Source of the DNA: a virus
Virus record (IMG/VR): IMGVR_UViG_3300028548_000096
Coordinates: 1-27,084 of that record
Length of the DNA: 27,084 nucleotides
Direction: 5' to 3' (one strand)
A program made the translations under genes and the position numbers. Of the stretch, positions 3,769 to 25,812 are shown piece by piece. Every line of letters begins with the position of its first letter. Position 1 is the stretch's first letter. The notes under the pieces are model-generated. The model was given only the letters and a program-made list of their open reading frames with translations. It was not told the origin of the DNA and did no database searches.

Positions 3769-5490
3769 TTACAAATCAAAGAATTTCATGGAGTCATCAG
3801 ACATTGTATCATCACCACCACCCGCAGAGCTATCTATAGATAGTCGATCAATCGCGGCTTCCGCATCCCTCAGATACGCAGCGGTCATGTTTTTCACCGC
3901 TTGCTGTCTTTCCGCGATCTGGGCTCTTAGCGCCACTGCTTTTTTCCCGTCTGGCTTTTTTTGCTTAGCTAGTGAGGCTTTGAGCATTGCCAACTGAGTA
4001 TCCTCGTTTTCTATCTCCATAGCGGAGGTATAAAGTTCCTTTTGGATTTCAAGTTTACCCGAGAGAGTCAGTAGTTTGTACTTTGCGTCAGTGCTTACTG
4101 CTAACATTAGCCTGTCGTGTACGCGAGCCAGTCGGGATTCTTCCTGAGTTAGTAGTCGGTCTTTATCTTTCTCCGCGATCTCTCGCTCGTCACTAGTCAG
4201 ATTCTGATAGGCGTTCGCGGATGTTATTTTGAGAGTATCAATATTGTTCTGCACAAGTGCGGCCTTTTCGGCGGCTTTTTCGTCCAACCCTAATTTTTTC
4301 GTCAGGAACTCTTTGTCCAGCGCAAGGCTTTTATCTAACATAGTCTGAGTACGTGCTTGCTGCTTCTGTACTAGCTCCTGATCTGCTAGTGCTGCCTTGC
4401 TTAGCCCTGCTACCCCACTCTGCATCGAGCCGGCATTAGCAAAGAACGCGAAGACTCTGTCTCTTGCTTCTTGTTTAGGGGATCTGGCGTAGCGTTCATT
4501 TACTACGTCCTGTTCTGACCGCATACGGTCGTACTCTGTTTTAATCCCTGATGCACCGGAGCGCTTGAGGAACTTATCGTAGGCATCATCCCCAGCTTTT
4601 GCGGAATCTCTACCCATGGCGTTGGAAAGGTTATCCATGGCCATTTTGTCCATCGCAGAGGTTCCACCTAAGGCCCGAGGCGCTTCTTGTTTAGGCGCAA
4701 CAGGTGCAACTTTAGGCGCAACAGGCGCAACTTTAGGCGCAACAGGCGCTTCTTGTCTTAGTACGGTACCTGTACCTACAGGAACGCTGGCTATACCGCT
4801 CTTAGTGGGGGGCGCAACTTTAGGAGCCTCTTCTTCAGGCGCAACTCCCAAATCTGCTAGTAGCTTCCTTTTGTTGTCCGCCGCTGTTTCTCGGCGTGCA
4901 GTGGCAGCACCAGCCCCTTGTTCGGTAATAGCAGTGTTAAGTTTTTGCAGTTGAGCATCTATATCGGCTGCGCTTTGTCTAGCTCTTGTAGCACTTATAG
5001 TCCCCTTCTGAACACCTTCGATCAGTGCAGCTTTCTTAGCCTCTAACTTAGCTCGTGTACTGTCTTGGTTTCTAACCTGCGTTTGCTTATCAGCTTTGTC
5101 AGCATAAGCAGCCAACCCACCAAACTGGAACTTCTGCACTTTGCCCCCACTAGCCATTTTCGGCATATTCTGGTTGCTCTGTGGCATAGCGGAAGCGATA
5201 CCTTTAGCCTGTGCAGCACCGCCTACGTCAGCCACGGATTGATCCTGCCCTCCGCCAACCATGCTTTGCATTTCTGCACTCTGCTGCTCCATAATAGTAT
5301 TAGGGGGAGTCTGCATCTGCGCGTCGATAGTGTTCTTCTCAGCCTTTAGTAGCTCCAAAACACGTTCCAACGCTATAGCTTGTTCCATAGAGGGGTCGAG
5401 ACGTTGCCTCTGCTCTAGCCCCTGTGGGTTCTTCATATACGTGTCTGCAAGCATGTTTACTTCTTTGTCTATCGAAGGCTGTAAGGCCAT
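3769..5490 (-). CDS. Internal virion protein, 573 aa, coiled-coil with GG motif
   Basis: Start ATG at 5490 with GGAGA eight bases upstream; the ORF stops 22 bases before the giant-protein ATG. Residues 1-75 are helical (NPQGLEQRQRLD, then a Gln/Met-rich stretch), a pattern I recognise from internal virion proteins of marine podoviruses. At about 109-130 comes MPKMASGGKVQKFQFGGLA, the recurrent GG motif of this window. Residues 140-215 are Lys/Ala/Gln-rich helix, then a Pro/Ala linker with three copies of VAPVAPK, then a long charged coiled coil (about 310-545). There is no signal peptide or clear membrane segment. Its position between two much larger proteins suggests it is packaged in the head or core and ejected with the DNA; this is contextual inference. 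The family call is moderate, the structural call good. Confidence 0.75.
   Translation of the reverse strand: MALQPSIDKEVNMLADTYMKNPQGLEQRQRLDPSMEQAIALERVLELLKAEKNTIDAQMQTPPNTIMEQQSAEMQSMVGGGQDQSVADVGGAAQAKGIASAMPQSNQNMPKMASGGKVQKFQFGGLAAYADKADKQTQVRNQDSTRAKLEAKKAALIEGVQKGTISATRARQSAADIDAQLQKLNTAITEQGAGAATARRETAADNKRKLLADLGVAPEEEAPKVAPPTKSGIASVPVGTGTVLRQEAPVAPKVAPVAPKVAPVAPKQEAPRALGGTSAMDKMAMDNLSNAMGRDSAKAGDDAYDKFLKRSGASGIKTEYDRMRSEQDVVNERYARSPKQEARDRVFAFFANAGSMQSGVAGLSKAALADQELVQKQQARTQTMLDKSLALDKEFLTKKLGLDEKAAEKAALVQNNIDTLKITSANAYQNLTSDEREIAEKDKDRLLTQEESRLARVHDRLMLAVSTDAKYKLLTLSGKLEIQKELYTSAMEIENEDTQLAMLKASLAKQKKPDGKKAVALRAQIAERQQAVKNMTAAYLRDAEAAIDRLSIDSSAGGGDDTMSDDSMKFFDL
4689..4750 (-). 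repeat. 21-bp coding tandem repeat (VAPVAPK)
   Basis: Three near-identical 21-bp units (plus-strand TTTAGGCGCAACAGGCGCAAC) encode VAPVAPK copies in a Pro/Ala linker of the 573-aa internal virion protein. It is likely a flexible hinge before the coiled coil. Confidence 0.8.
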
Positions 5491-5515
5491 TACTTATTCT
5501 CCAAATTGTTAGTAC

Positions 5516-8137
5516 TTATATTCCCATCGGGTCGCGGTATATCTCAGAGTTACCGCCGCCTTCATCTTCTACGTAATCGCTGCCTTGGTCTGTATCAAAG
5601 CCATCGTCGTAATCTTCGTACTCGAAGTTGTCAGAACCGCCATCGTCATCGTCACCGCCGGGTTTGTACGTATTGTACAGATCCGATAGACCTTCGCCGA
5701 GTTGGCCAGTCGCACCTAGTATGGCCATTATCGTAGATAGGTCACTTGCGCCACTCATCTGGTTGGAGGTCGCGTCAATAGGTAGCCCTTCGAGTAAAGA
5801 CTTCTGGAACTGGATCTGCTTCTGAGCGTAATCTCGCTCTTCGTCAAACTGCGCTTTATCCGCAGTGATACCTTCAGCTTCAATAGCTCTCTGCGTGTCA
5901 CCTGCATTGCGCTGTGCGGTTAGTACATCGAATCCGAACTTGTTAGTCTTGTCTTGGGCAGTCATTCCACGATCTTGCTCGGTATTAAACTGCTTCTGCG
6001 CCTGCTGGAATGCTGTATCGTAGCCTCTAGCGGTAATGTCTGATTGGCTTTGTAATAGGTTACGTGCGCCTTCAGCTTCCATAATAGCTTGACGTGAACC
6101 ACCAAAAGCACCGGCCTTAGTCAAACGCCCTGCGTCTTGTATACGCTGTATCTCCGCCTCACGACGATTCTCTCTTAGCTGAGGGTTCAACGAGCCTTGT
6201 AGATATGGGTTCATGTACTGCTGTTGGGCAGCGGAGTCGAATGTACCTGCCTGATAACCCTGCCCGCCCATAGCACCGGGAGTCTGTAAACTTCCAACAC
6301 CACTAAACGACTGTTGCTGCAAGTCACTAGCCCCCGCAGTAAGTGGGCCTGTGTAGGCTTGGTATGGCATTTCTGCTGCCGCTGCACCTTTGCCCAACAT
6401 ATCAACAACATAGTCGCCAGCATAAGGGGATAAAGAGCTTTCCTGCCCGGTAACTTGCCCCCCAGCGTCGAACTGTGCGATACCGCCAGCCATCTTGTTA
6501 ATTACTTTATCCGCGTCGATCTTCTTGCCCTGCTTCTTATTGCCGGTACGTTCTTTACGGACGTTATCCATCATCTTGCCTAGCTTATCAGCGCCAGCAG
6601 CGGAGTTACCGTTACCGAGATGACTTACTACATCAGCAGGGATAACGTACTCACCGTCACTCAGACGTGCTTCTACTTCACCGTCAATGGTAGATACTAT
6701 TTCATCCGCCATGCCATCAGTAGGGCCACCTAGGTAGTACCCTTGGCCCGGAGATGTCTGTGCAATACCACCTTCAGCGAAACCTCGGAAGCCCTGCATT
6801 CGCTGCTCAAACTGCATAGGTACACCACTCATTCTAGGTGGAGTGTTGCTTTGTCTTTGTGGAGAACGGCTACCATCTCGAAATTGCTTGAGTGCGTCAG
6901 CAATGCCTCCAAAGTTTCGGGCGCTACCTACTCGTTCAGTGCCGTCACTCATTCTTCTACGGCCTTTGTTTTGCATCGGGCCAGAGGGGCGCTGACGGTT
7001 CATAGGAGTATTACCCCCACGACCACTCAGTAAATCTCCTAAACGCTTATTGTTCTCTGGGGTGTTCCTCTCCCCCATTCCTCGTTCCATCTTCTCCATT
7101 TGTTTGCGTCTTCGCATCATCTCACCGAAGTTATCCGCAACGATACCTCGACCGCCACTACCACCACCAGCGATCATATTGCCGTTTGGCCCTGTACGTA
7201 TACCATCAGCGATACCTCGACCGCCACTACCACCAGCGAGCATATTGCCGTTTGGCCCCGTACGCATACCGAACATGCCTTCTTGTCCAGTGCGTCCGGG
7301 TATACCACGATAGCCACTACCTGCACCGTAAGAGGGTTTAGCGGACACTACTTCTTGTCCAGCGCCTTTGGGTATACCACGATAGCCACTACCTGCACCG
7401 TAAGAGGGTTTAGCGGACACTACTTCTTGTCCAGCGCCTTTGGGTATACCACGATAGCCGCTACCTGCGCCAAACTGCGCGAGGCCGCCTTGGGCGTACC
7501 TAGGAGTCTCTGGGAGGTCGTTATCTACAAAGCGATCTTCGGTCAAATCTACCCTAGCGAGGGCGTCTTCAGTTATATCGGCATCATCGAATCTACCACC
7601 ACGATAGCCACTACCTGCACCGTAAGAAGGTTCGCCACGATAGCCACTACCTGCACCATAAGAAGGTGTGGTATCTCCAGCTTCACGATAGCCACTACCT
7701 GCACCCGTATTGGAGCCAGACGTACTATTGTTCTTATTGGGAGCACCGTAAGAAGGTTCGCCACGATAGCCACTACCTGCACCATAAGAAGGTTCGCCAC
7801 GATAGCCACTACCTGCACCATAAGAAGGTGTAGTAGTAGAAGGTGTAGCACTCTCCGCAAAACGTGCATTTTGTATGTCCGCGAGTCCAGCGGCTTGACG
7901 TTCCGCCTGCGCTATTGCAGAGGCAGTAGTCCCTCTTGGGATCATAGTAGACATTTGGTTGCCCTGATCTACACCGTCCATATTAGAGTATACTACGTCA
8001 CTGAAGTATCGGCGTCCGCCTTGGCCCGGCCTACGGGCTTCTTGGGCACTATTATCTACCGCCCTACGAGTGGCAGTGTACTTAGGTACGCTACCTTTAT
8101 ATCCAGTATCAGGAATTTCCGGGTCTAATATGCCCAT
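5516..8137 (-). CDS. Large virion protein with GAGSGYRG repeats, 873 aa
   Basis: Start ATG at 8137 preceded by GGAGAG at six bases. Residues 1-100 are polar; residues about 100-285 carry eight copies of GAGSGYR(G/E), spaced by EPSY or IPKGAGQEVVSAK, and then two copies of RTGPNGNM. Around 445-535 lies a conserved phage segment, EGGIAQ followed by GGPTDGMADEI and LSDGEYVIPADVVSHLGNG, which recurs in tail and internal virion proteins of many phages. A second GG motif (MAGGIAQFDAGGQV) follows near 550. Residues about 580-770 form a Gln/Ala-rich helical region with QQYMNPYLQGSLNPQLREN and AGAFGGSRQAIMEAEGARNL, typical of internal virion proteins in marine podophages. The C-terminal 60 residues are strongly acidic (Asp/Gly). 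It is probably a packaged ejection protein. The molecular role of the Gly-Tyr-Arg repeat is unknown. Confidence 0.75.
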   Translation of the reverse strand: MGILDPEIPDTGYKGSVPKYTATRRAVDNSAQEARRPGQGGRRYFSDVVYSNMDGVDQGNQMSTMIPRGTTASAIAQAERQAAGLADIQNARFAESATPSTTTPSYGAGSGYRGEPSYGAGSGYRGEPSYGAPNKNNSTSGSNTGAGSGYREAGDTTPSYGAGSGYRGEPSYGAGSGYRGGRFDDADITEDALARVDLTEDRFVDNDLPETPRYAQGGLAQFGAGSGYRGIPKGAGQEVVSAKPSYGAGSGYRGIPKGAGQEVVSAKPSYGAGSGYRGIPGRTGQEGMFGMRTGPNGNMLAGGSGGRGIADGIRTGPNGNMIAGGGSGGRGIVADNFGEMMRRRKQMEKMERGMGERNTPENNKRLGDLLSGRGGNTPMNRQRPSGPMQNKGRRRMSDGTERVGSARNFGGIADALKQFRDGSRSPQRQSNTPPRMSGVPMQFEQRMQGFRGFAEGGIAQTSPGQGYYLGGPTDGMADEIVSTIDGEVEARLSDGEYVIPADVVSHLGNGNSAAGADKLGKMMDNVRKERTGNKKQGKKIDADKVINKMAGGIAQFDAGGQVTGQESSLSPYAGDYVVDMLGKGAAAAEMPYQAYTGPLTAGASDLQQQSFSGVGSLQTPGAMGGQGYQAGTFDSAAQQQYMNPYLQGSLNPQLRENRREAEIQRIQDAGRLTKAGAFGGSRQAIMEAEGARNLLQSQSDITARGYDTAFQQAQKQFNTEQDRGMTAQDKTNKFGFDVLTAQRNAGDTQRAIEAEGITADKAQFDEERDYAQKQIQFQKSLLEGLPIDATSNQMSGASDLSTIMAILGATGQLGEGLSDLYNTYKPGGDDDDGGSDNFEYEDYDDGFDTDQGSDYVEDEGGGNSEIYRDPMGI
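7301..7470 (-). repeat. 72-bp tandem direct repeat
   Basis: Two essentially identical 72-bp units (7301-7372 and 7373-7444) plus a partial, diverged third copy. Each encodes 24 residues, GAGSGYRGIPKGAGQEVVSAKPSY read circularly in two parts. The identity at DNA level implies recent duplication or gene conversion. It lies inside the 873-aa virion protein. Confidence 0.9.
7600..7828 (-). repeat. 36-bp degenerate direct repeats (GAGSGYRGEPSY)
   Basis: Five further copies of a roughly 36-bp unit (plus-strand CCACGATAGCCACTACCTGC is the invariant core) encode GAGSGYRGEPSY. The copies are interrupted once by an Asn/Ser-rich linker and once by an acidic segment. The same core word occurs in the 72-bp repeat at 7301-7470, so the two arrays have a common origin. 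Confidence 0.85.
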
Positions 8138-8149
8138 TCTTCTCTCCGC

Positions 8150-11100
8150 TTAGCCTAAATCAAGGTCTTTTAAATTAGTGTTTACAGATAAATTACTATC
8201 AATATCTCTTAGTGTATCATTATCTCTGGTAATACCAAACCGTTTTTCTTGCGCTACATCTCTAAATATGCTATCCCCAGAAAAATCGTAAGGGTCTAAA
8301 AACTCCATTAACTCATCATCATCTTCTTCTGGAGCGCGGTTTCCACCAATAGAGCCACTTAGACCACTTAGAGAACCTAAAGCACCTAGGAATTTACTGA
8401 AGTCTGGAATATCAGGGAAGTCAGGTAAGTCAGGTAAGTCAGGTAAGTCAGGCCCGTCTGGGAAGTCAGGTAACGCGTCACCAACAGTATCAACAACATC
8501 GTCTACCACATCACCAACACTATCAATAGCATCGTCTATAGGGTCAATAACATTATCTTCCACGAAGTCCCGCGTGGGCTGTATGATATTATCGTCTATA
8601 TCAGAACCTAGGTCGCCTATAGGCTTAGTGAACTTCTGCACCACGTCATCATCAAAGTCGCTAAGGAATGCCCTAGCTGAATCGCCGTCTACAGGAATTT
8701 GGTCTTTTAATGGCTGTAGGACGGCGTCATCAAAGTCTCGACCCATTTGTTTTAGTTTGTCTTCGTACTGGCCCCAATCATGTTTTTTAGCCCAGTCACG
8801 TATTATCTCTTCTCCCTCCTCTTCAGCTTGGTCTCTGAGGGATTCTTCTAGGCTCTTACCATTTGCTACTTCAACTAGGGTTCTATGCGTAGCCTCTCTA
8901 ACTTTAGGAGACATGTTTTTTATTAGGTCAGTATCCCCTAAAGCGTCCATACCTTTCTCGAAAGCGACGCTAACTACTCGCTGCTGGGCAAACTCTTTTA
9001 GGTCGCCATTTATCGTAGCGGTTATAGCAGCCCGACTCTCGTTATACCCCATGGTGTATAAGTCACCAAAGACAAACCCTTTACCCATGCGCGCTGCTTT
9101 ATACGCGTCCGACCCCGCCTGTACCGCATCCGCTGTTGCTGCCCCCGCCTTTAGGGCATCAGATTTTGCAATGTCGCCTAATTTCTGTGCCTCCTCCTTA
9201 TTTACTCCGGGAGTAATAACTTCTGCCATTTCAAAGACGAAAGGTACGACTCGCAGGTAATCCCCGGAGGTGGCCTCCCCTTTTACTACGTTCTCGACGG
9301 CAGGGCCAAGCTCTTTAAGACCTCCAAAGGCCACAGACTCCCCCACGTTTTTAATTGTCTCCCACGGGTCGTCGTACCACTTCTTCTTTTTGGGTTTTTT
9401 CATCCCCGGCTGCACGTCAGAGAAAGACACATTACCTGCGTCTAACATAGCAACCGTGGCGCGGCGCTCGTTCTGCTCATCAGTGAACCCTTCGATGCTA
9501 CTAGGGCTATCGTACTCTGTATCTAACTCATCAAACTGTACGACGCGGTAAGTCTCATATGGGCTACCGGACGCGTTTGTGGCAATACTTCCATCTGGTA
9601 GGTAGAAGAATTTTTCGTCATCTGTCGCTAGGTTCTGAGCTACCATCTCTCTATAAACGGATTCTTCTAATCGCCCTTCATCTTTTAGGTAATCAAGGTA
9701 GGCGTTTCTCTTTACTGCATCCATGGTGGCGAACGTTTCACTGAAGCTATCAGAGCCTGCCACGGCATCTAGGTAGTCAAACGCATTTGCGTAATCTTCG
9801 GCGCGTCTAGTGTCGTACATATCGTACGCTTCGACTTCGAGTTCTGGGTCTTCAAATTCTAGCTGGGTAACCACCGACGTAAAGTAATCAAAGTATTCTT
9901 CGTCTGATCGGTAGTCCCCTGTGTTAGGGTCAATCGTAGTATAGTCTACCGAGAACTCTTGTAGCTCCCTATCTGTAAACCCTGCGCTCTCTAGCATTTC
10001 TAGAGACTCCCCCAACGGCACGTTGAAAGTATCGCCGGTACTACGTTCTACATCGTCTAGATAACGATTAAGCTGAGTCTCGCTAATCTCTCCATTTAGG
10101 AACTTAGTTTCAACATCGGCTAAACGCTCTGGACTACCATAATCATCATCAAAGGGAGAAAGACTATCTAAGTTGTACCCAGCAATAGACCCCTCTGCAT
10201 ATTGGGGGTCGTCCTTATAGCTTTCTGGGTTATACGCTCGCATGTAGCTTTGAAGGATATTTAAGTCTTCTCCATGCAACTCTCGAAACGCTTGTCGATC
10301 TTCAAGGTTGGCTTGGCGTTCAGAGGCAGAAGCGTTCTCCCACTCCTCGTCCGACATGTTAATGTCTTCGCCCATTCCCTTGAGTTGATTAAAGCGCCTA
10401 AACTGATCCGTCTGGCTCATGTTACGGGGGTCGCCGTAGTCTACATACCCTTTATCACCGGGCTTTAGAGACTTACGTGTTACATTAACAGTGCCGCCAC
10501 TAGGAGTTGATACACCCGTTACCCGCCCACTCGCGTCAAAATTAGGGTTGCGTAGTGTGCCCCCCTTACCTGAACCATCACCCATCCCAGCAGGTTTATA
10601 ACTACTACCTCCGCTATATGTGCCCGATTGGATAGCGTCTATATCTCGTAGTAAGCTATCCCCATCCGGCATCTGAGATGCAAACGCTTCGAGAGCGCTG
10701 CGCTGGTCAGCCATACTCATCCCGTTACCGATGTTACTCAGGTTAGCAGGGTTCATTAGGTTTTCAGAACTACCCCACCACTCTACTAGCCGTTGGGGCT
10801 GGGCGGCTAACCTATCAAATTGACCAGCGGCATCGTTAAACAGCGTGCCCCCAAGAACACTCATGGCTACTTCCGCTGCGGGTACACCTGTAACGTAGTC
10901 GTAAGTGTTCTCTAGCGCTGTCCCTATTACGCCGGGCGCACTACCTAGATAGTCTCTAACGGAATTATCCCTGACCGTATCTCTAAGCCAATTACCCGAA
11001 CTGCCGGGCTTCATAGTAGGATTTTCTGTGTAGAAAACGTCTAGTTCTTTTTGTGTTATCGGGACGTAAGTGGAGGGTAATTTACCGTCCATCCGAGCAG

Positions 11101-11332
11101 AGCCCGCGCCAAGAGGATTCCAGTTGGGGTTTTGTCCCGCCATCTGTGAGCCGGGCTGACCATAACCCTGCGAAGCCTTCGTTCGGTCTGAGTGCGTCGA
11201 GCGGTTGGCTTGATACCCGCTACCGTAATAGACAGCTCTATTATGGCCAGCATAAGATGATTTAGAAGTACCTCTACCTCCATTACTCCCACTAGCGTAG
11301 GTCATCTGGTTTGCGCCCATGCCTCTACCCAT
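8150..11332 (-). CDS. Large virion protein, 1060 aa, Asp-rich with PDLPDL segment
   Basis: Start ATG at 11332 with GGGGA eight bases upstream; the stop is 12 bases before the next start. Residues 1-100 are Gly/Ser/Tyr-rich with no hydrophobic segment (YASGSNGGRGTSKSSYAGHN, YYGSGY), echoing the Gly-Tyr-Arg repeats of the downstream gene. Residues 300-620 are strongly acidic and largely helical. Residues 660-800 include a Lys-rich patch (KKPKKKKWYDDPWETIKNVG) and an Ala-rich helical segment. Residues about 880-1000 contain amphipathic helices (VVDDVVDTVGDALPDF) that run into a Pro-Asp tandem (PDLPDLPDLPDF), a layout I have seen in internal or tail proteins of marine phages. There is no enzyme motif. 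Position and size suggest a fourth ejection/internal virion protein. I do not recognise a named family. Confidence 0.7.
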   Translation of the reverse strand: MGRGMGANQMTYASGSNGGRGTSKSSYAGHNRAVYYGSGYQANRSTHSDRTKASQGYGQPGSQMAGQNPNWNPLGAGSARMDGKLPSTYVPITQKELDVFYTENPTMKPGSSGNWLRDTVRDNSVRDYLGSAPGVIGTALENTYDYVTGVPAAEVAMSVLGGTLFNDAAGQFDRLAAQPQRLVEWWGSSENLMNPANLSNIGNGMSMADQRSALEAFASQMPDGDSLLRDIDAIQSGTYSGGSSYKPAGMGDGSGKGGTLRNPNFDASGRVTGVSTPSGGTVNVTRKSLKPGDKGYVDYGDPRNMSQTDQFRRFNQLKGMGEDINMSDEEWENASASERQANLEDRQAFRELHGEDLNILQSYMRAYNPESYKDDPQYAEGSIAGYNLDSLSPFDDDYGSPERLADVETKFLNGEISETQLNRYLDDVERSTGDTFNVPLGESLEMLESAGFTDRELQEFSVDYTTIDPNTGDYRSDEEYFDYFTSVVTQLEFEDPELEVEAYDMYDTRRAEDYANAFDYLDAVAGSDSFSETFATMDAVKRNAYLDYLKDEGRLEESVYREMVAQNLATDDEKFFYLPDGSIATNASGSPYETYRVVQFDELDTEYDSPSSIEGFTDEQNERRATVAMLDAGNVSFSDVQPGMKKPKKKKWYDDPWETIKNVGESVAFGGLKELGPAVENVVKGEATSGDYLRVVPFVFEMAEVITPGVNKEEAQKLGDIAKSDALKAGAATADAVQAGSDAYKAARMGKGFVFGDLYTMGYNESRAAITATINGDLKEFAQQRVVSVAFEKGMDALGDTDLIKNMSPKVREATHRTLVEVANGKSLEESLRDQAEEEGEEIIRDWAKKHDWGQYEDKLKQMGRDFDDAVLQPLKDQIPVDGDSARAFLSDFDDDVVQKFTKPIGDLGSDIDDNIIQPTRDFVEDNVIDPIDDAIDSVGDVVDDVVDTVGDALPDFPDGPDLPDLPDLPDFPDIPDFSKFLGALGSLSGLSGSIGGNRAPEEDDDELMEFLDPYDFSGDSIFRDVAQEKRFGITRDNDTLRDIDSNLSVNTNLKDLDLG
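8404..8470 (-). repeat. 9-bp coding tandem repeat (Pro-Asp-Leu)
   Basis: Seven near-perfect 9-bp units (plus-strand AAGTCAGGT) encode PDFPDGPDLPDLPDLPDFPD near residues 955-975 of the 1060-aa virion protein. It is likely an extended, negatively charged spacer between helical and Gly/Ser-rich regions. Confidence 0.8.
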
Positions 11333-11362
11333 TACAGCGTCCCCAAGTAATATTCATTAGCA

Positions 11363-11689
11363 TTATTTTGCTGTCCATGTCGTATCCCCATCCCCAGTTT
11401 TTACGTATAGCGTAGTACTAGTGCTACCATCAGTACGTAGGAATATAGAGCCTCGTAAGGCAGCAGTACCAGAACCTGCACCGGGGTCGCCCGTGCCAGA
11501 TAGTATTCCGACCGTACCCACGGTTATCTCAGGGAAAGTAACACTCCGTAGCTCCTTGTCTATCTGGTTAAAATATATACGTAAGGTACGGTTAGTTTCA
11601 TTAGCCGCAGTCTGGCTGTATTCGGGTGTGGCATTCGGCAGTGCCGGAGCTACAAAGGGTACGTTATATCTAGTAGTATCTCCGGGCAT
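11363..11689 (-). CDS. Small fibre-like structural protein, 108 aa
   Basis: The ATG at 11689 overlaps the upstream stop as TAATG, so translation is probably coupled to the stabilisation-protein gene. Residues 30-50 are helical (NETNRTLRIYFNQIDKELR), and the C-terminal 35 residues are beta-rich, reading LRGSIFLRTDG then TTLYVKTGDGDTTWTAK. The same closing module ends the 341-aa fibre at 16586 (VGSIYSRTD, LYSKTGGSGNTGW), and I recognise it from the ends of many phage fibre and spike proteins. There is no signal peptide. It may be a small tail accessory or a free-standing fibre tip. The structural assignment is fair and the specific role unknown. Confidence 0.65.
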   Translation of the reverse strand: MPGDTTRYNVPFVAPALPNATPEYSQTAANETNRTLRIYFNQIDKELRSVTFPEITVGTVGILSGTGDPGAGSGTAALRGSIFLRTDGSTSTTLYVKTGDGDTTWTAK

Positions 11690-13773
11690 TATCTTCTCCC
11701 GTCAGGACGTATCTCTATACGAGGCTTACCTAACTGCCACTTGACTCCCGCGCCTGTAGACTCTACTTTTAACGTGAGCTGTCTACCTCTAACGCGTACG
11801 TCTACCTCCCCAGTAAATTCTTCGATGGGGGTAGTAATCCCACGCACTACACCTTGTCCTGAATCCCCGCCCACGGATAGGGGGTTGTTGTATCCCGAAC
11901 CAGAGTTTTTACTAGGGAACAGCGACATGGTTACGGTAGCGTTACCCGCTTCAGAGCCGGCAAAGGATATGTCTGGGTATATTTTATTTACAAAAGAGAA
12001 CCTATCACCATCTCCTATGTCAAACTGTGCAGAGGTTATGGATGCAGGTATAGGGCTAGTTGTGGCTAGTTCGTTGTCGTCCGTACCCAGCTCATGTTCT
12101 ACTACAACCCCATTGTATGTGGCCCCGAACGGGTGGTTCTGTATTCCAGAGTCCAGCCATGCAGTGCGCGCAATATCACCGTAGTACCATATATTTTCTA
12201 GGTAGTTGTAGATAACGTACTTGTCGTTAGTGAGAGAGTTCTTAGAGGGGTAGTGCCACCATATCTCGTGGTAGGACTCGTTTGTACCCGCCGCAACTTG
12301 CTCGGTCTGTTCACTGTTAAAGTCGTCGAATATATACTTACGCAGGTCACATGGTAGGGATTGGGCTCGTCCATCGTAGGCGTAGAACTTATCTCTACCC
12401 ATCCAGAAGGCCATACCATTAGCATAAGCTACAGAGTTAGTCCCTGCGATAGAAGTATTCTCACCTACAAGCTGGGCAGACCACACTGCGGGCGCACCCA
12501 CGTACTGCATCGCGTAAACTGCCGCATCTGTGAACACTAGTATTTCTTGTCTGGACTGGATAGCGGTAACAATCTTACTACCTTTAGATAGTGTTATCCC
12601 GCCCGACTGGTTAGTAGCTGCCGGTGTCCAGTTAGTAGCGTCTTCTTGGTCTGACCAACGTACTAACATACGGTTAGCTACACTACTGCCCAAAGGGTTA
12701 CACCCGAAACAAAATACAAACCTACTTACATCAGACACTAGTAGCCCGTGCTGCGTCGTCGGCACGTTAGAAGCTCCGCCTTCAGCAGATAGTAGGGTAC
12801 CGCGTGTTGTTAGTGAGTCACTACGGTCAGATATGTATATAGGGCCAGCGATAGGGGCAAAGAGTAAGTCTTCACCAAAGTTAGCTTGGCTCCACAGTCG
12901 GATGTCCAAACTAACCCCGCTACCATCTCCCCAAGTGCTTTGTCCCCAGTAGCCTGCGCCCCACCCTGTGCCGGGAGGTGCTTGTGTTTCAGCCCCAGTG
13001 TTAATCTGGTACACCGCATCTGCCCCGGAACCGCCGTTACCCGTATCACTAGCATTAGCTGTAGCGGTAGCAACGAAAGTAAAAGTATCTGCGCTAGGTA
13101 CAGAAGTTATCTGGTACTCTCTGTTTAACACCGCGAAAGTTATGTTACCGCCAAGGGTGGCGGCCTGAGAAAAGGTAACAAAATCCCCTACAAAAGCCCC
13201 ATGTGCATTATCAGTTGCGGTTATGATGTTACCGTTCTGGAATGTCAGCGTGCCATTGGTTACTGCGCCACCTGTAGTAGATACTGGGGCACCAGCCGCA
13301 TTTGCTAGTTCAAAGTGCGTAGTATCCGTTATAGAACCAACAAACGAGCCAGAAGGAATGCCAGTACCAGAAACACTTAGGCCCACTACAATCTTTGCGT
13401 TTGCATCGTGAGTAATAGTCGGGTCGTTGTTATAGTCGCAAGTTGCGTCAGTAAACGTAGCACTAAAAGTAATGCCGTTAGTTGTTGTTGCTCTTACGGG
13501 GGTAATGTCGTTGTACGTACCACCTGTATACAGGTAAAACTTTAGGTTAGTACCCACACCAAGTAGATCCGTGCCCCCGAGATCATTCCAATTGAACAGA
13601 GAACGGCATACACCTAGAAACGTATCCGCAGTGAGGCGCTGCCACCCACCAATCTTCTCAGGGTTGCCTTGACGGAAACGTACTTTGTCGCTCTCCCACC
13701 AGCCGCCCTCGTTAGTATAGCGAGTGTTCTCGCGGTTTACTCCGGGGCGTAGGTCTATTTTTTGTATTGCCAT
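11689..13773 (-). CDS. Probable head-closure / packaged-DNA stabilisation protein, 694 aa
   Basis: The N-terminus (QKIDLRPGVNRENTRY, EGGWWESDKVRFR, PEKIGGWQRL) is a strongly conserved opening that I associate with gp10-like stabilisation / tail-hub beta-propeller proteins of podoviruses. Residues about 100-170 look like a Ig-like or beta insert (VVGLSVSGTGIPSGSFVG). Residues about 180-265 carry a second module (NAHGAFVGDFVTFSQAATLG, LNREYQITSVPSADTFTF). Residues 330-560 have the repeated beta-blade pattern (GMAFWMGRDKFYAYDGRAQS, YHEIWWHYPSK). The 694-aa length exceeds a P22 gp10-type protein, which the inserts explain. It is preceded by a weak GAGA site and translationally coupled to the next gene. 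An alternative is another tail-hub or tubular component. The structural role is fairly secure, the exact equivalence less so. Confidence 0.65.
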   Translation of the reverse strand: MAIQKIDLRPGVNRENTRYTNEGGWWESDKVRFRQGNPEKIGGWQRLTADTFLGVCRSLFNWNDLGGTDLLGVGTNLKFYLYTGGTYNDITPVRATTTNGITFSATFTDATCDYNNDPTITHDANAKIVVGLSVSGTGIPSGSFVGSITDTTHFELANAAGAPVSTTGGAVTNGTLTFQNGNIITATDNAHGAFVGDFVTFSQAATLGGNITFAVLNREYQITSVPSADTFTFVATATANASDTGNGGSGADAVYQINTGAETQAPPGTGWGAGYWGQSTWGDGSGVSLDIRLWSQANFGEDLLFAPIAGPIYISDRSDSLTTRGTLLSAEGGASNVPTTQHGLLVSDVSRFVFCFGCNPLGSSVANRMLVRWSDQEDATNWTPAATNQSGGITLSKGSKIVTAIQSRQEILVFTDAAVYAMQYVGAPAVWSAQLVGENTSIAGTNSVAYANGMAFWMGRDKFYAYDGRAQSLPCDLRKYIFDDFNSEQTEQVAAGTNESYHEIWWHYPSKNSLTNDKYVIYNYLENIWYYGDIARTAWLDSGIQNHPFGATYNGVVVEHELGTDDNELATTSPIPASITSAQFDIGDGDRFSFVNKIYPDISFAGSEAGNATVTMSLFPSKNSGSGYNNPLSVGGDSGQGVVRGITTPIEEFTGEVDVRVRGRQLTLKVESTGAGVKWQLGKPRIEIRPDGRR

Positions 13774-13782
13774 GTTTAATCT

Positions 13783-16541: not shown

Positions 16542-16585
16542 TGTGTGTTTCCTTCCCGACATGGTAATGTCCGTCAGTTAGTTAG

Positions 16586-21643: not shown

Positions 21644-21652
21644 GGGGGTTCC

Positions 21653-22087
21653 TTAGGCTATACGTATAATAGCACTGGTTGCGTTGTTAGCAGGGAAAGT
21701 TACATTGAAGGTACTGCTAGTTGCTGTCTTGCGTCCCCCAAAGTCTAGTACTGCTATAGCTTGATTACCGCCCCCAGACTTATATACTAAAGCCCCACTC
21801 GCAGATAAAGTTGCGGAAGCCCAAGACACAGTATTAAAGCTAATAGTAGCAGTCGTACCGTCAGAGGTGACTGGTATCAAAGTGGCTGCGTTGCCTCCAG
21901 CAGTGTAGTTCGTGCCTGTGATCTCTCCAGTGGTAGTATAAGCAGTAGTACTAGCGTCTAGGTTCATGGCGTCGCCATCGTATAGAGCTACCTTAAACGC
22001 CTGTGAAGTGTCAGAACTGAAATCAAAGACTCCGCTGAGCACGTCTACTTTAAAAGATGTTGTCTGTGTCTGAATTAGTGTGCTCAT
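21653..22087 (-). CDS. Beta-rich tail structural protein, 144 aa
   Basis: ATG at 22087 with AGGG nine bases upstream, two bases after the adaptor stop. The product is rich in Ser, Thr, Ala and short beta strands: SFKVDVLSGVFDFSSDTSQA, FKVALYDGDAMNLD, TTTGEITGTNYTAGGNAATL, then WASATLSASGALVYKSGGG and AIAVLDFGGRK. I recognise this layout from small proteins located between connector and fibre genes in marine phages. It lacks a signal peptide and helices. It may be a tail appendage or an adhesin-like cap. The structural call rests on composition and position, so the specific role is unknown. Confidence 0.7.
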   Translation of the reverse strand: MSTLIQTQTTSFKVDVLSGVFDFSSDTSQAFKVALYDGDAMNLDASTTAYTTTGEITGTNYTAGGNAATLIPVTSDGTTATISFNTVSWASATLSASGALVYKSGGGNQAIAVLDFGGRKTATSSTFNVTFPANNATSAIIRIA

Positions 22088-22089
22088 TC

Positions 22090-22692
22090 TTATGCCCTGT
22101 AAGAGTCGTTAGCTAGTTTATCCGAACCCGACATTAACGCTTGCAGTGCAAGCATGTAGTACTTCTCGTATAGGGCCACCATATCTTGTTCACCCTTAGT
22201 AAACCGTATAGCTTCCATAAGCGAGCGGTTCAACAATGCAGCGTCGAAGTGATCGCCTAGCCAAGTAGTGCCCGTAGCTACTATAGACTCTGGAGCATAC
22301 CCGTACTGTAGGTTGTAGGCGTAGTTCTGGTCAGGCGTAGGCCCAAGTATCGCCTGTGTCTTGTTATACAGCCCATAGTGCTTAGGAAAGCCGGTAGAGC
22401 TGGGTTTTGGGTACGCCTCGCTGATAAAATCAACATTCTTGTTTAGTAGCAATTTAGAATCCCCTGCCGCGTCTACCAAGGTAAAACTATGTATATACAG
22501 GTAATCAGTGGGCAACGTAACAAATTGACTAGGCTGCTCTAGGTTACCTGTGGCGGCTTTACGTAAAACCGGTAACCGTATAGTGTTATATATCTCTTGC
22601 TCGGCCTGCTTTATAAACATATCGAGCTGGGCAGTTGTGAATGTCTGTTCAACTACGTCTTGTATGTTTGTCTTTAATTCTGTGTAGTTCAT
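22090..22692 (-). CDS. Head-tail adaptor, phage SU10-type, 200 aa
   Basis: ATG at 22692 overlaps the upstream TGA (ATGA), indicating coupled translation. The N-terminal helices (DVVEQTFTTAQLDMFIKQAE, QEIYNTIRLPVLRK) and the short beta section (FVTLPTDYLYIHSFTLVD, LGPTPDQNYAYNLQYGYAPE) match the adaptor family found under the portal ring in podoviruses such as SU10. The C-terminal helical part (FDAALLNRSLMEAIRFTKGE, YEKYYMLALQAL) supports it. Adaptors of this family form a dodecameric ring that links portal to tail and recruits fibres. Its neighbours (zinc-ribbon connector protein, second adaptor-like protein) support a connector role. Confidence 0.85.
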   Translation of the reverse strand: MNYTELKTNIQDVVEQTFTTAQLDMFIKQAEQEIYNTIRLPVLRKAATGNLEQPSQFVTLPTDYLYIHSFTLVDAAGDSKLLLNKNVDFISEAYPKPSSTGFPKHYGLYNKTQAILGPTPDQNYAYNLQYGYAPESIVATGTTWLGDHFDAALLNRSLMEAIRFTKGEQDMVALYEKYYMLALQALMSGSDKLANDSYRA

Positions 22693-23048
22693 GTAATAGT
22701 TACCGTAACTTGTCCAACCTCACCCGTAGCTACTAGGGCGTTGGATGCTAATGAATCTGAAGGGCCGCCTACTGGGTTGTATCCCCACTGAAGGCCACGT
22801 GCGCTAACCTTAGTCCCTGTCCCCAGACTTCTATCGGGACGTACATCTCGCAATGCTTGTGGGTCATATACAGGAAACTCGCCCAATTTGTTTTGTGGGT
22901 GATCTCCATTCCAACATGAAGGGCACGCCTTTATATTCGTGTCTACCCCTTTCCTAAATAAGCTCTTTAGCTGCTTTAGTCTATACCTAAAGCCACATAA
23001 GTCACAGAACCCGAATGCCTTTTTGCCGGCAGCGAACTTAGTCCCCAT
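22689..23048 (-). CDS. Zinc-ribbon connector-region protein, 119 aa
   Basis: ATG at 23048 overlaps the preceding stop (TAATG). Cys15-x2-Cys18 (GFCDLCGFRYRLKQL) and Cys42-x2-Cys45 (ACPSCWNGDHPQ) form a clear zinc ribbon. The rest (FPVYDPQALRDVRPDRS, LQWGYNPVGG) is polar with a short beta C-terminus (GEVGQVTVTIT). Small zinc-ribbon proteins at this position beside adaptor genes recur in podoviruses and are usually regarded as virion structural, perhaps stabilising the head-tail junction. I have no direct evidence that it is in the particle. A DNA-binding or assembly function is possible. Confidence 0.8.
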   Translation of the reverse strand: MGTKFAAGKKAFGFCDLCGFRYRLKQLKSLFRKGVDTNIKACPSCWNGDHPQNKLGEFPVYDPQALRDVRPDRSLGTGTKVSARGLQWGYNPVGGPSDSLASNALVATGEVGQVTVTIT

Positions 23049-23734
23049 TACGGGTGTCCCATGCGAGGTACGAACCTAACTGAAGCCTTCTCTCTATCTT
23101 CTTGTGAAGCCAAGTCAAACTGCTCTTCGTATACAGACTTTAACATACTTAGGCGCTCAGAGAGTTCAGGTACCTTCATAGCGATGTGGTACGCTAGTCC
23201 TGCTACTAGACAGGGGAGAAAACGGAAGTTCATGTCCGCAGTTTCTATACCTGCACCCGCGTCTTGTACTCTGCGTAGGCGGTAGTAGTTTATCTTGTAT
23301 CCTGCCTTATCTGGTACAGGCCACACACTGATCTTAGGAGCGTCTCTCAGACGTTCGATGAATATCTGTATGGGTCTACCTTGTGTCAACTTGTTTGGGA
23401 TTGTGGCGTAAGTGCTCACACTGATACGTGATAGGTTAAGGTCAGACTGAGTAGATACACTACCTGCATCAGTCCGTAGTTGGTGTTCTAGTAGGTCAAT
23501 GGTATCGGCGGGGAGTGTGTACTGCGTCTGCCCCTTCAATAGATCAATGTTACCTTCCTCGATAGTCCACATGTTGATGCCACGGTTTTGCCACTCTATA
23601 GTCATCAAGTTCATGGATCGACGGGCAGTACGCAGGTCATAGCCAGAACGCATCTCACGTCCAGCTCTCTCCCACGCCTCTTCAGCAATCTCGGTGAAAT
23701 CCATGTCGAACGCTGTGCTATTTGATGTAGCCAT
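23048..23734 (-). CDS. Head-tail adaptor, gp4/gp11-like, 228 aa
   Basis: I place the start at the ATG at 23734, where TAATG overlaps the upstream stop and GGGGA lies six bases ahead; an ATG at 23746 has only AGG touching it. The N-terminus (DFTEIAEEAWERAGREMRSG, YDLRTARRSMNLMTIEWQNR) is the helical opening I associate with tail adaptor proteins next to the portal in podoviruses, followed by beta segments (QTQYTLPADTIDLLEHQLRT, RPIQIFIERLRDAPKISVWP, INYYRLRR) and a C-terminal helical hairpin (FRFLPCLVAGLAYHIAMKVP). Together with the SU10-type adaptor this makes a two-ring connector likely. It could instead be the tail tubular A-like protein of this phage. Confidence 0.8.
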   Translation of the reverse strand: MATSNSTAFDMDFTEIAEEAWERAGREMRSGYDLRTARRSMNLMTIEWQNRGINMWTIEEGNIDLLKGQTQYTLPADTIDLLEHQLRTDAGSVSTQSDLNLSRISVSTYATIPNKLTQGRPIQIFIERLRDAPKISVWPVPDKAGYKINYYRLRRVQDAGAGIETADMNFRFLPCLVAGLAYHIAMKVPELSERLSMLKSVYEEQFDLASQEDREKASVRFVPRMGHP

Positions 23735-23916
23735 TATTTTCCCCATCCTGATTTAGCTGTAACTTTAGCTTTCTTAGCTAGATCGCCGTAATGGAACAAT
23801 CTTACACTGCTTTTACTATGAGTTTTACCTGTGTGAAGAGAGCCGTCAGCCATTTTATGTAGGCCGCCCTTATGCTCTTTACCGTCTTTTTTATAATGCT
23901 TAACGCCCATACCCAT
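23734..23916 (-). CDS. Small basic conserved phage protein, 60 aa
   Basis: ATG at 23916 with an excellent GGAGG site nine bases upstream, two bases after the stop of the preceding gene. The protein is Lys/His/Gly-rich (VKHYKKDGKEHKGGLHKMAD, GSLHTGKTHSKSSVRLFHYG), contains no Cys, and has seven His. I recall close relatives directly upstream of adaptor genes in HMO-2011-like phages, all uncharacterised. The high His and Lys content could mean metal or nucleic acid binding, but that is only a composition argument. Confidence 0.75.
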   Translation of the reverse strand: MGMGVKHYKKDGKEHKGGLHKMADGSLHTGKTHSKSSVRLFHYGDLAKKAKVTAKSGWGK

Positions 23917-23918
23917 GG

Positions 23919-24218
23919 CTACTTCCTCCGCTTAGCAGGAGACACTCTACGTGGCTTACCCGCTGGTTGTCCTAGTCGATTCTTCTCGGCTATCTTACTC
24001 TTCTTCTCCGCACTAGACATCTCACCTGAGGTCTTTGGAGTCTTAGATGTAACACGCTTAGAAGGACGGCAGTAAGGAGTACCCCTACCCTCGCCTTTCT
24101 TTCTACCACAAGCCTTACCGGTCTTAACGTCTTTCCAATCTTCCTTGAACCAACGCTTTAGAGACGCACCCTTCTCGGTTTTACGTACTCCACCGCCAGA
24201 CTTATAATACCTACGCAT
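23919..24218 (-). CDS. Small basic protein, DUF5872-like, 99 aa
   Basis: ATG at 24218 overlaps the preceding TAA (TAATG). The N-terminus MRRYYKSGGGVRKT is shared with two neighbouring genes. The central part (WFKEDWKDVKTGKACGRKKG, TPYCRPSKRVTSKTPKTSGE) is the signature I associate with DUF5872, found in phages and, from memory, large algal viruses. Two Cys (CGRKK, YCRP) could bind metal or form a disulphide. The tail is highly Lys/Arg-rich (EKKSKIAEKNRLGQPAGKPR). The function is unknown; a DNA-binding or DNA-condensing virion protein is a reasonable guess from charge only. Confidence 0.75.
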   Translation of the reverse strand: MRRYYKSGGGVRKTEKGASLKRWFKEDWKDVKTGKACGRKKGEGRGTPYCRPSKRVTSKTPKTSGEMSSAEKKSKIAEKNRLGQPAGKPRRVSPAKRRK

Positions 24219-24394
24219 TACTTACCAGCCTTCTTCTTTCGACATTTAGCAATAGCCCCAGACGCGTACGCAGAAGGGAAGACCTTGTAGCTGGCCTTCA
24301 CCTTCTTATAGCACGAATCCTTTACGGTGCCGCCTTTAGCAAACTTCTTGTCCTTAGGGCAGCCGCAAGAGCTTGTTTTATAGTAGCTACGCAT
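24218..24394 (-). CDS. Very small Cys/Lys-rich protein, 58 aa
   Basis: The gene is shorter than usual cutoffs but fills the only gap in this gene chain. Its ATG (24394) overlaps the upstream stop as TAATG, and its own stop overlaps the next ATG the same way. The product starts MRSYYKTSSCGCPKDKKFAK, continues GGTVKDSCYKKVKASYKVFP and ends SAYASGAIAKCRKKKAGK; four Cys (10, 12, 28, 51) and 17 of 58 residues are Lys or Arg. The FPSAYASGAIAKCRKK pattern is one I recall from hypothetical proteins of phages and giant viruses. It may bind zinc. The function is unknown. Confidence 0.85.
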   Translation of the reverse strand: MRSYYKTSSCGCPKDKKFAKGGTVKDSCYKKVKASYKVFPSAYASGAIAKCRKKKAGK

Positions 24395-24687
24395 TAGCGC
24401 ATCTTACATACTTTGCCACCACGTGCCATACCGTAGCCTCGAACTTTACCGCCAGCCATCTTGTTCGTAGCTGCACGTTGCCCTCGCTTAGGCTTATCAA
24501 CCTTACCACCATCCATCATCTTCTTAGGTGGACTAGGGAGGTTACCCATCATGGCTTTCTTCGCCTTGGCGTCGTACGCTTTCTTTTGCGCGGGGGTTAA
24601 CTTCTCATAGTCCGCGTCTTTCATTGGTTTAAACTTATCCACATTATTCTCCATCTGCTTGGTCATTTGCGACCGTGATATAGTCAT
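24394..24687 (-). CDS. Small basic protein with three GGKV motifs, 97 aa
   Basis: I take the ATG at 24687, where TAATG overlaps the previous stop; the in-frame ATG at 24702 would add five residues inside that gene. The N-terminal half is a Lys-rich helix (QMENNVDKFKPMKDADYEKL, TPAQKKAYDAKAKKAMMG). The C-terminal half carries three spaced copies of a Gly-Gly-Lys-Val motif (MMDGGKVDKP, KMAGGKVRGYG, MARGGKVCKMR). The terminal CKMR is identical to the last residues of the upstream gene. No Pfam family comes to mind. Its position in the small-basic-protein chain suggests a virion or assembly role. Confidence 0.75.
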   Translation of the reverse strand: MTISRSQMTKQMENNVDKFKPMKDADYEKLTPAQKKAYDAKAKKAMMGNLPSPPKKMMDGGKVDKPKRGQRAATNKMAGGKVRGYGMARGGKVCKMR

Positions 24688-25502
24688 TAGCGCATCTTGC
24701 AAGTTTTGCTGCGTGCAGCGATGCCATTGCCTCGTACAGTCTTACCACTCATAAAGCCTTTAGGCTTCTTAATTTTGGCCTTAGACTGTTTAAGTTTAGG
24801 TAACTTATTCTTATTGTTCATGTAGTCGGATAGGCTCTGGCCCGGCTTTAGATCTTCTTTATACACTGCCGCCATCTTCTTACCGTTCTTACTGTAAAAC
24901 TTAGACCCAGCTTTCTTAGCCTGTGCGATAGTCTTATATTGATTCCACGAAGGTGTGGAAGTACTTTGGTCAGATTTAGCCTTAGGTGGAGCCTTAGACA
25001 CTGGAGCATCTACAGTAGCACGCTTTACCGCAGCAGTTTTCTGCTTATTGGCAGAGGTGGTTACTTTCTGGTTAGCGTCCATCTTAGCGTTGTCACGCTG
25101 CATCTTACCTAAGTTAGTGCCTTTACCTTCAACCGCTTTAGGCTGGGCTTTAAAGTTGCCAGTCGATTTCTTAGCAGTTGGCTCCTTGGCAGGTGGCTTC
25201 TTGTAGTCAGACGCTATTGAATCACTAAGTGCGCCCCCTACTTTAGGTATACCAACTGCGGCAGCCGTAGTGGCGGCACCTGTACCAATTCGTCTACGTC
25301 CGCTACGAACTGCACTAAGAGTAGGTTTATTACCCCTTGGGTCATTTTTTGCTCGGTTTTTCGCGCCCTTCGGTGTTTTGCCAACTGTGCCTGATACTTT
25401 TTTCTCAACAGCTTGCGCTTTCTTTACCGCACCCTTGCCGAACTTTTTAATTGCCTGCGTAATACCCATCCGGGCTATCGCAGCTATGATTGGTAGTGCC
25501 AT
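24687..25502 (-). CDS. Basic Ala/Lys-rich protein, probable internal virion or DNA-binding, 271 aa
   Basis: ATG at 25502 with GGAG ten bases upstream, one base after the preceding stop. The N-terminus is amphipathic and hydrophobic (MALPIIAAIARMGITQAIKK), followed by Lys-rich runs and an Ala-rich segment (TGAATTAAAVGIPKVGGALS). The centre is low complexity (Lys, Ala, Thr, Pro). Around 185-225 lies a small folded module, YKTIAQAKKAGSKFYSKNGK then KMAAVYKEDLKPGQSLSDYM, which I remember from the ends of several phage virion proteins. It ends SGKTVRGNGIAARSKTCKMR, a variant of the neighbour's GGKV...CKMR tail. The N-terminal part resembles the membrane-active start of viral core proteins, but that is a loose analogy. 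Confidence 0.7.
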   Translation of the reverse strand: MALPIIAAIARMGITQAIKKFGKGAVKKAQAVEKKVSGTVGKTPKGAKNRAKNDPRGNKPTLSAVRSGRRRIGTGAATTAAAVGIPKVGGALSDSIASDYKKPPAKEPTAKKSTGNFKAQPKAVEGKGTNLGKMQRDNAKMDANQKVTTSANKQKTAAVKRATVDAPVSKAPPKAKSDQSTSTPSWNQYKTIAQAKKAGSKFYSKNGKKMAAVYKEDLKPGQSLSDYMNNKNKLPKLKQSKAKIKKPKGFMSGKTVRGNGIAARSKTCKMR

Positions 25503-25503
25503 T

Positions 25504-25812
25504 TTAACATCTCCAGCGCTTACGCGCCTGTCTTAGTCGTGAATTAGGGTCTTTCGCTGCTTTAGGGAACTTCTTCATCTGCCCTGCGGAACGTGCGCAA
25601 TAAGACTTACGTCTAGATGCGCGTTTTCCTTTAGGCTTATCTTCCGTCACAGCCGTTTTTAATTTACTGCCGGGGTTATTCTTTCGGTACTTCGCTACAC
25701 CTTTAGCGGTCATGCCCGCACCGGATTTGGTAGAACGTTTGTCGCCGCTCTTCTGGCTCATCCCCTTCATACCGGTGCCGACTTCCCCACCTGTTTTGTA
25801 GTACCTACGCAT
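25504..25812 (-). CDS. Small basic protein, DUF6321-like, 102 aa
   Basis: ATG at 25812 preceded by GGAG nine bases upstream. It starts MRRYYKTGGEVGTGMKGMSQ, the same opening as the gene at 23919. The body (GMTAKGVAKYRKNNPGSKLK, TAVTEDKPKGKRASRRKSYC, ARSAGQMKKFPKAAKDPNSR) is the pattern I associate with DUF6321, a small domain in phage virion regions. It ends in RQARKRWRC with a terminal Cys. It is very basic, with no membrane segment. The function is unknown, although linkage to capsid genes suggests a packaged protein. Confidence 0.78.
   Translation of the reverse strand: MRRYYKTGGEVGTGMKGMSQKSGDKRSTKSGAGMTAKGVAKYRKNNPGSKLKTAVTEDKPKGKRASRRKSYCARSAGQMKKFPKAAKDPNSRLRQARKRWRC

Follow-up and report, generated by a model that had tools for sequence, protein, structure and literature searches.

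The window analysed here is a 27,084-base virus record (IMG/VR IMGVR_UViG_3300028548_000096), which represents the late region of a tailed phage and in which a short Gly-Gly (GG) motif recurs in the products of several otherwise unlike genes. All the genes discussed are on the minus strand. In order of transcription they are the cement-like gene 26400, genes for two small proteins, gene 25504 (a DUF6321 protein), genes 24687 and 24394 (basic proteins), gene 24218, gene 23919 (a DUF5872 protein), the adaptor-like gene 23048, the long gene 17666, whose product we took for a tail fibre, the endolysin-type gene 15657, gene 11689 (a needle/stabilization protein), then genes 8150, 5516 and 3769 and a 1249-residue open frame. 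Annotated relatives identified through the 11689 protein include DSL-LC04, CRP-902, MinM2 and HTVC023P. The motif copies and the features associated with them were located as follows:

25780..25812, minus strand: N-terminal tag MRRYYKTGGEV of the 102-residue DUF6321 protein of gene 25504-25812 (DUF6321 E 6.6e-12), in a stretch predicted with low confidence by AlphaFold.
24690..24737, minus strand: C-terminal tail VRGNGIAARSKTCKMR of gene 24687, resembling the tail of gene 24394 (from the sequence).
24499..24519, minus strand: MMDGGKV, the first copy in the 102-residue basic protein of gene 24394-24702 (pattern scan).
24442..24462, minus strand: KMAGGKV, the second copy in gene 24394 (pattern scan), sharing a 19-base identity with gene 5516.
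24409..24429, minus strand: MARGGKV, the third copy, inside the C-terminal tail of gene 24394 (pattern scan; relatives have MAxGGKVKxM repeats).
24397..24444, minus strand: C-terminal tail VRGYGMARGGKVCKMR of gene 24394 (from the sequence).
24323..24343, minus strand: FAKGGTV, immediately ahead of the KDSCYKKVK...PSAYAS domain of gene 24218-24394, whose product starts MRSYYKT (pattern scan).
24186..24218, minus strand: N-terminal tag MRRYYKSGGGV of the DUF5872 protein of gene 23919-24218 (DUF5872 E 1.4e-14).
7478..7498, minus strand: YAQGGLA in the 873-residue DNA-ejection-like protein of gene 5516-8137 (pattern scan).
6761..6781, minus strand: FAEGGIA, upstream of an ARLSDGEYVIP element in gene 5516 (pattern scan; the element context was seen in the near-identical L114 copy).
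6476..6496, minus strand: KMAGGIA, just ahead of the ejection-protein-like part of the gene 5516 product (pattern scan and alignment with L144).
5516..8137, minus strand: putative DNA-ejection-type protein (similarity to L144, which matches PHROG 4287).
5137..5157, minus strand: MASGGKV in the 573-residue product of gene 3769-5490, where it falls in a linker of low confidence flanked by predicted helical parts (pattern scan, AlphaFold).
5110..5124, minus strand: FGGLA in gene 3769, containing G124, invariant in alignment A1 (pattern scan, alignment).
3769..5490, minus strand: protein probably of the internal-virion/ejection kind (its gene follows 5516, and of the 24 family members aligned, 2 resemble a family of internal virion proteins with an endolysin domain).

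A preliminary description of this DNA had noted the pattern x-[MAFKT]-x-G-G-[KLIEGT]-[VA] and suggested a common tag, serving as a docking peptide, a processing site or a packaging signal. All the peptides that it listed were present in the sequence, each in the gene named, and 10 of the 11 listed copies fit the pattern, the exception being FGGLA of gene 3769, which has a Gln two residues before the GG. The pattern also matched TTLGGGV in gene 13783, a peptide absent from that list, which we took for an unrelated hydrophobic stretch. The 27 window proteins together had 11 matches against 1.79 expected when each protein was shuffled, and none of 2000 shuffles reached 11. In 852 dereplicated proteins drawn from the window, 66 related loci and four annotated phages, however, the same pattern proved too loose (102 matches, where block shuffling gave 59 and sequence reversal 75) and was kept as a starting point only. 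Within this larger set the sharper form [FYM]AxGG[KLIEQTVM][VA] matched 35 times (block shuffle, 1.93; reversed sequences, 2), and a control with two small residues replacing the GG gave 2 matches where 5.6 were expected. The residues enriched ahead of the GG included Met and Tyr at position -3 and Gly and Ala at position -2.

A DNA-pattern scan of the viral collection found at least 120 stretches encoding MAxGGIVx[FL] and at least 120 encoding MAxGGKVKxM, against 71 and 10 stretches, respectively, in the complete collection for control patterns with the two post-GG residues swapped; of the 120, the matches listed by locus were 80. Among the matches listed, 119 of the 120 loci had MAxGGIVx[FL] in frame; the proteins were mostly long, and the motif recurrently lay in the surroundings GI..LPAPNM..MAxGGIVAFxxGG. 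Its swapped control was in frame in 49 of 71, several of these being motif variants themselves. A simple gene caller resolved an in-frame protein for MAxGGKVKxM in 77 of the 120 listed loci, the other 43 being left unresolved, and the resolved proteins were mostly short and basic, many with multiple copies.

The codons of the GG varied from copy to copy, which points to selection on the peptide and not on the DNA. Together, the shuffles, the reversed sequences, the swapped-residue controls and the codon variation ruled out a chance origin, and the motif is real. A translation signal or other DNA-level signal in GGNGG was also ruled out, because the copies are mid-gene and their codons differ. 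The one exception is the KMAGG region, where positions 24447-24465 (gene 24394) and 6481-6499 (gene 5516) share 19 identical bases, a possible trace of recombination.

The distribution of the motif among genes was far from even. In 18 phage records, the form [FYM][AMK]xGG[KLIEQTVMR][VAI] occurred 53 times near structural anchors (2.5 expected), in 46 distinct contexts, as the window was assigned as structural by hand and record G014 overlaps it so that some copies are double. Near replication anchors there were no copies (0.42 expected), and three were unassigned. The preliminary description had asked whether the motif is equally frequent in non-structural proteins or in shuffled sequences, and these counts answer that it is not. 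The motif was present in 14 of the 18 records, with HTVC023P and CRP-902 represented by their first 50,000 bases only, which omits the HTVC023P genes after the needle. Counted per GG dipeptide in 16 of these records (MinM2 and HTVC010P lacked an anchor), the motif accounted for 24 of 236 between the capsid protein and the adaptor and 25 of 634 in the ejection stretch. Elsewhere it accounted for none of 944 between adaptor and needle, none of 134 in the needle, none of 10 in the adaptor, 3 of 264 between terminase and portal, and 2 of 271 in the rest, and by position and copy number the last two belong to the G009 gene homologous to 5516. The two rich intervals, which were picked post hoc, thus held 49 of 870 and the others 5 of 1623 (p=6.9e-18, with G014 repeating part of the window). 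The carriers fall into two groups, small basic proteins encoded between the capsid protein and the adaptor and large ejection proteins encoded after the needle, and this concentration suggests that the tag marks two groups expected inside the head and not virion proteins generally.

In the first group, a near-identical N-terminal MR[RS]YYK tag was found on three window proteins of unrelated domains, with the GG downstream: MRRYYKTGGEV on the DUF6321 protein (Pfam score 46.3 bits, cut-off 28.5), MRRYYKSGGGV on the DUF5872 protein (55.1 bits, cut-off 27.5) and MRSYYKT on the KDACY-type protein, where FAKGGTV precedes the domain. The N-terminal tag had 15 matches, one of which (L072) looks spurious, and two different tagged proteins occurred in each of records G001 and G009 and the L426 contig. 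A GG lay within 4 residues of the KDACY domain in 55 of 89 distinct sequences, a share biased upward by a GG-containing query and a set taken from the best 80 of 511 matches. AlphaFold gave the 25504 protein a predicted local distance difference test score (pLDDT) below 50 at residues 1-9 and 11-31, with helices from residue 36. The adjacent genes 24394 and 24687 end in nearly identical C-terminal tails, VRGxG[MI]A...CKMR. Among 48 distinct basic proteins of at most 350 residues in the motif-selected loci, 24 had an RGxGxA-type tail and 12 a DGxAxRGxT-type tail. DUF6321 homologs adjoin capsid genes in two T7-like phages. A tblastn search of the phage collection found no relative of the 24394, L135 or L308 basic proteins, so no isolate with virion proteomics can be named for these three.

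In the second group, gene 5516 sits after the needle gene, a position that fits a DNA ejection protein. Its product had no PHROG match of its own; residues 565-721 were 45% identical (79 of 177 aligned) to L144, residues 27-331 of which match PHROG 4287 (DNA ejection protein, 1.5e-16). Tandem repeats of about 36, 66 and 72 bases lie within this gene, at window positions 7141-7829. The 3769 protein itself matched no internal virion protein family or hydrolase domain. In the family assembled around it by iterative profile search, 2 of 24 aligned members match phrog_342 (internal virion protein with endolysin domain), and on this similarity we regard it as a probable internal-virion/ejection protein. 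Matches to solved structures were left unused (3769 had two, one to a terminase small subunit at E 0.015 and one at 0.3; 5516 had one, at E 0.56; 25504 had none).

The gene downstream of the ejection gene carried the motif, with Ser also allowed before x, in 17 of 29 needle-selected loci, or 20 of 29 when the ejection gene was counted; these loci were selected without regard to the motif, and L005, almost a duplicate of the window, is among them, as are some close relatives. In a 27-row alignment of the downstream genes, two adjacent columns were Gly in 27 and 24 rows, and the nine rows without the strict form all had a nearby GG (e.g., MMAEGGIM), although the aligner may favour GG-to-GG placement. 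Alignment A1, comprising the window and 23 of 28 matches (four short fragments were dropped, and L005, with the same first 80 residues, was replaced by the window copy), had invariant columns at G97, A113, G115, G116, F121 and G124, of which only G97 and G124 are unbiased because 22 of the 24 rows were fetched by the motif pattern. The AlphaFold model of 3769 had pLDDT below 50 at residues 113-127, between predicted helices. In both this protein and 25504, the low confidence at the tag is as in disordered linkers, by prediction. At another locus, the L227 protein has an SLT transglycosylase domain directly after the motif; it did not resemble 3769 significantly (its best alignment, E 0.15, covered the motif itself).

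Some of the same domains occur in T4-like cyanophages, where they are accompanied by peptides resembling the T4 capsid targeting sequence (CTS). The free-standing DUF6321 protein of Syn1 (Syn1_112) starts with the T4-CTS-like peptide MKSFKQLRIDINE, the L194 protein with the T4-CTS-like MKSFKQFINEEVINE before DUF6321, and the AG-345-E15 protein with the T4-CTS-like MKTFEQFTE before DUF5872; in S-B68, an internal FSDFIEE stands directly before the KDACY domain. A gp21-type protease is present in the records of L194, Syn1 and S-B68. The annotation given to proteins of the DUF6321, DUF5872 and KDACY types is virion protein for S-SCSM1 and structural protein for S-E7 and S-B68, and the labels for DUF6321 homologs specifically are those in S-SCSM1 and S-E7. 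Here and below, statements from cited papers refer to the portions of their text that were available. In the S-SCSM1 paper mass spectrometry yielded 45 virion proteins, with the DUF6321-type protein not named in that portion, and T4-GC119 is termed hypothetical (PMC3037559). In the T4-like cyanophages L437-L442, L523 and L524, the domains that the window encodes in separate small genes can be fused, several of them near terminase genes. Counted irrespective of reading frame, the DNA pattern for the Met form of the motif matched 21 times in the 690,805 bases of 13 window-type records and not once in the 1,682,597 bases of nine T4-like genomes. G+C content is an unlikely cause of this absence, as the window-type records G002, G003 and G008 match at 40% G+C; the T4-like genomes had 37 to 51% G+C in about 5 kb sampled from each, and a backward control, which had no match anywhere, carries little power.

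In the T4 CTS, targeting acts through residues 4 and 7 and processing through residues 8 and 10 (PMC9026906). Like the CTS, the MR[RS]YYK tag is a short N-terminal peptide on otherwise unlike proteins (DUF6321, DUF5872 and KDACY), in a few T4-like relatives DUF6321 and DUF5872 bear the T4-CTS-like peptides in its place, and the window tags have an aromatic residue at position 4, a T4 targeting position (PMC9026906, PMC3012670). This aromatic, together with the GG at positions 8-9 in two of the three tags, is suggestive only. Unlike the CTS, many GG-motif copies are internal or C-terminal, and the window tags have a GG core, no [IL]xE and no Glu cleavage site at residues 8-10. Neither that site nor a gp21-type protease was found for the motif, and it was therefore not classed as a member of the CTS. 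By analogy it is best read as working like a CTS-type tag, one that would target its carriers to the head. In P22, the scaffold is needed for incorporation of the ejection proteins gp7, gp16 and gp20 into procapsids, and the authors' model assigns this to the N-terminal part of gp7 and gp20, with no common short tag named in the available text (PMC8402733). The MAxGGIV core also recurs outside the window-type phages: L139, on our reading a tape-measure-type protein, has it in other phages and in another context.

The motif may, we consider, form the centre of a short linear tag by which proteins are sorted into the interior of the phage head during assembly, an explanation that we hold at about even confidence. 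Proteins that must be inside, the small basic and the large ejection proteins, would carry one or more copies in predicted-disordered stretches. Three placements would be in use: N-terminal (MRxYYKxGGxV), within a linker some 80-160 residues into the protein (MAxGGIVxF), or repeated close to a conserved C-terminal tail (MAYGGKVKKM). The core of Phe, Tyr or Met, GG and a hydrophobic residue would be recognised by a component of head assembly, the scaffold being the likeliest, which would bind it and so draw the proteins into the procapsid; the CTS in T4 and the scaffold for ejection proteins in P22 offer precedents, and an uncut, scaffold-bound tag would fit phages with no known prohead protease. 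The tag idea of the preliminary description is supported in part: of the functions that it offered, docking is favoured because the motif sorts to predicted interior proteins and T4-CTS-like peptides sit in its place on a few of the same domains, and cleavage is disfavoured in that none of the S77, S78 or ClpP proteases was found in the 13 window-type records.

Several observations weigh against a head-interior tag. Our searches found no virion proteomics for any GG-tagged phage, and we infer the encapsidation of the carriers. There was no strict copy in G010, HTVC010P, CRP-902 or HTVC023P (50,000 bases each for the latter two), and the strict motif was absent from 12 of the 29 downstream genes. 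In DSL-LC04 the motif occurs also in a PcfJ-like protein and in a small protein near the portal, neither with a known place in the phage. Its presence in the annotated tape measure protein of this phage would fit a role at ejection as well. Many homologs of the small proteins are untagged, starting with the domain or a different N-terminus: MRxYYK was present in only 9 of 36 DUF6321 proteins in alignment A2 (36 of 38 sequences, L069 and L072 being left out), and 34 of the 89 KDACY sequences had no GG within 4 residues of the domain despite the GG-biased set. The T4-like parallel consists of four sequences, and in the other 7 of 9 annotated T4-like cyanophages the proteins are long and fused, with no T4-CTS-like start at the domain. 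No gp21 match was found in the 66-kb record of AG-345-E15. The Phe/Tyr form of the DNA pattern, again counted in any frame, had 3 matches in the nine T4-like genomes against 10 in the 13 window-type records. Finally, the DSL-LC04 capsid protein matches two PHROGs named capsid plus protease, over the later part of those families only.

The last point bears on the possibility that the motif is a maturation cleavage site, with a protease cutting after the GG in the procapsid and removing N-terminal propeptides or splitting the basic proteins. The gp21 protease of T4 cleaves at Glu sites, and the FSDFIEE of S-B68 occupies the place of the GG in the podovirus-type proteins. Adenovirus and asfarvirus maturation proteases have GG-X cleavage sites, with Gly-Gly in small basic core proteins, although the spacing of the hydrophobic residues differs from that of the window motif. 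The motif lies about 80-160 residues in, near the 124-127-residue length of the propeptides of three SPN3US proteins (PMC5694885), which, like those of phiKZ, are a sorting/processing element of head and ejection proteins, and tandem copies would suit the excision of small pieces. The giant phages, in contrast, cut after Glu with a gp21-like protease (PMC9026906), and this family (PF03420) was found in 9 of 9 T4-like cyanophages and 0 of 13 window-type records, of which DSL-LC04 is a complete genome and the other 12 may be fragments. Proteases of the S77, S78 and ClpP families were likewise absent from the 13; a C48 search, matching nothing anywhere including its controls, was uninformative, and other protease families lay outside the search. 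The three unknown genes before the DSL-LC04 capsid gene matched no protease family, and in A1 conservation extends past the GG to F121 and G124, in rows mostly (22 of 24) fetched by a pattern partly including these residues. With no protease of clear role found, the tag is probably not cleaved, and we consider a cleavage site unlikely.

Equally improbable in our estimation is a motif that acts at ejection and not at assembly, as a flexible Gly hinge or an element contacting membrane or peptidoglycan, tape measure proteins included. The carriers do include the SLT transglycosylase protein L227, family members with endolysin or transglycosylase matches, and the DSL-LC04 tape measure protein. Moreover, a GE[FY]V element (ARLSDGEYVIP, about residues 466-552 of 5516) recurs in ejection and tape-measure-type proteins, and of 85 distinct cases of the GEFV element, 33 had a looser GG motif in the 110 residues upstream, compared with 2 of 56 control windows; in loci not chosen by the motif the figure was 8 of 21. 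The motif is, however, also found on small basic proteins with no detected hydrolase domain, at the N terminus or near the C terminus.

It is very unlikely, in our view, that the basic copies (GGKVKKM) serve as a repeat that binds DNA or RNA and condenses the genome, and that their likeness to the GGIV copies is convergent. The carriers of the basic form are mostly short and positively charged, and T4-related phages have basic internal proteins with CTS-like sequences (PMC9026906), but the GGIV copies are in long proteins, and in several phages both gene groups have forms of the motif. Spread of short repeats by recombination between late genes, with no common function, is just as remote: the 19-base identity of two window copies and the tandem repeats in several of these genes would suit it, whereas the codons differ, the GG columns are among the most conserved in the downstream-gene alignment and none of the 944 GG dipeptides between adaptor and needle belongs to the motif.

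A full-text literature search for the motif strings and related topics, with subscription journals mostly outside its coverage, found no paper on the motif, and to our knowledge how phages other than T4 choose their head-interior proteins is largely open. If the tag can be read from sequence, it would name candidate interior proteins in many uncultured phages and provide a cargo-loading peptide. It would also offer a first way into the function of DUF6321, DUF5872 and related small basic families; DUF6321 spans T4-like and T7-like phages. More broadly, and tentatively since we think this wider claim rather doubtful, many environmental tailed phages with no known prohead protease may use a protease-independent Phe/Tyr/Met-x-x-Gly-Gly address code to load a changeable set of basic and ejection proteins, a functional equivalent of the CTS with a separate origin, by which interior proteins of uncultured phages could be recognised from sequence alone.

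A few further features were seen at related loci. Small basic proteins of a GLYANI[HN] type lie beside DUF6321 in two T7-like phages (L525, 3201-3377; L527, 2345-2482), and a related GLWANIHAKR occurs between the GG motif and the GEFV element in L138 (8625-9056). L118 encodes a 1029-residue motif protein with DUF4214 (10359-13445), in which HINT/intein-like matches were weak and below cut-offs. A DUF5872 protein is annotated in the algal giant virus CpV-BQ1 as well (PMC12085832).

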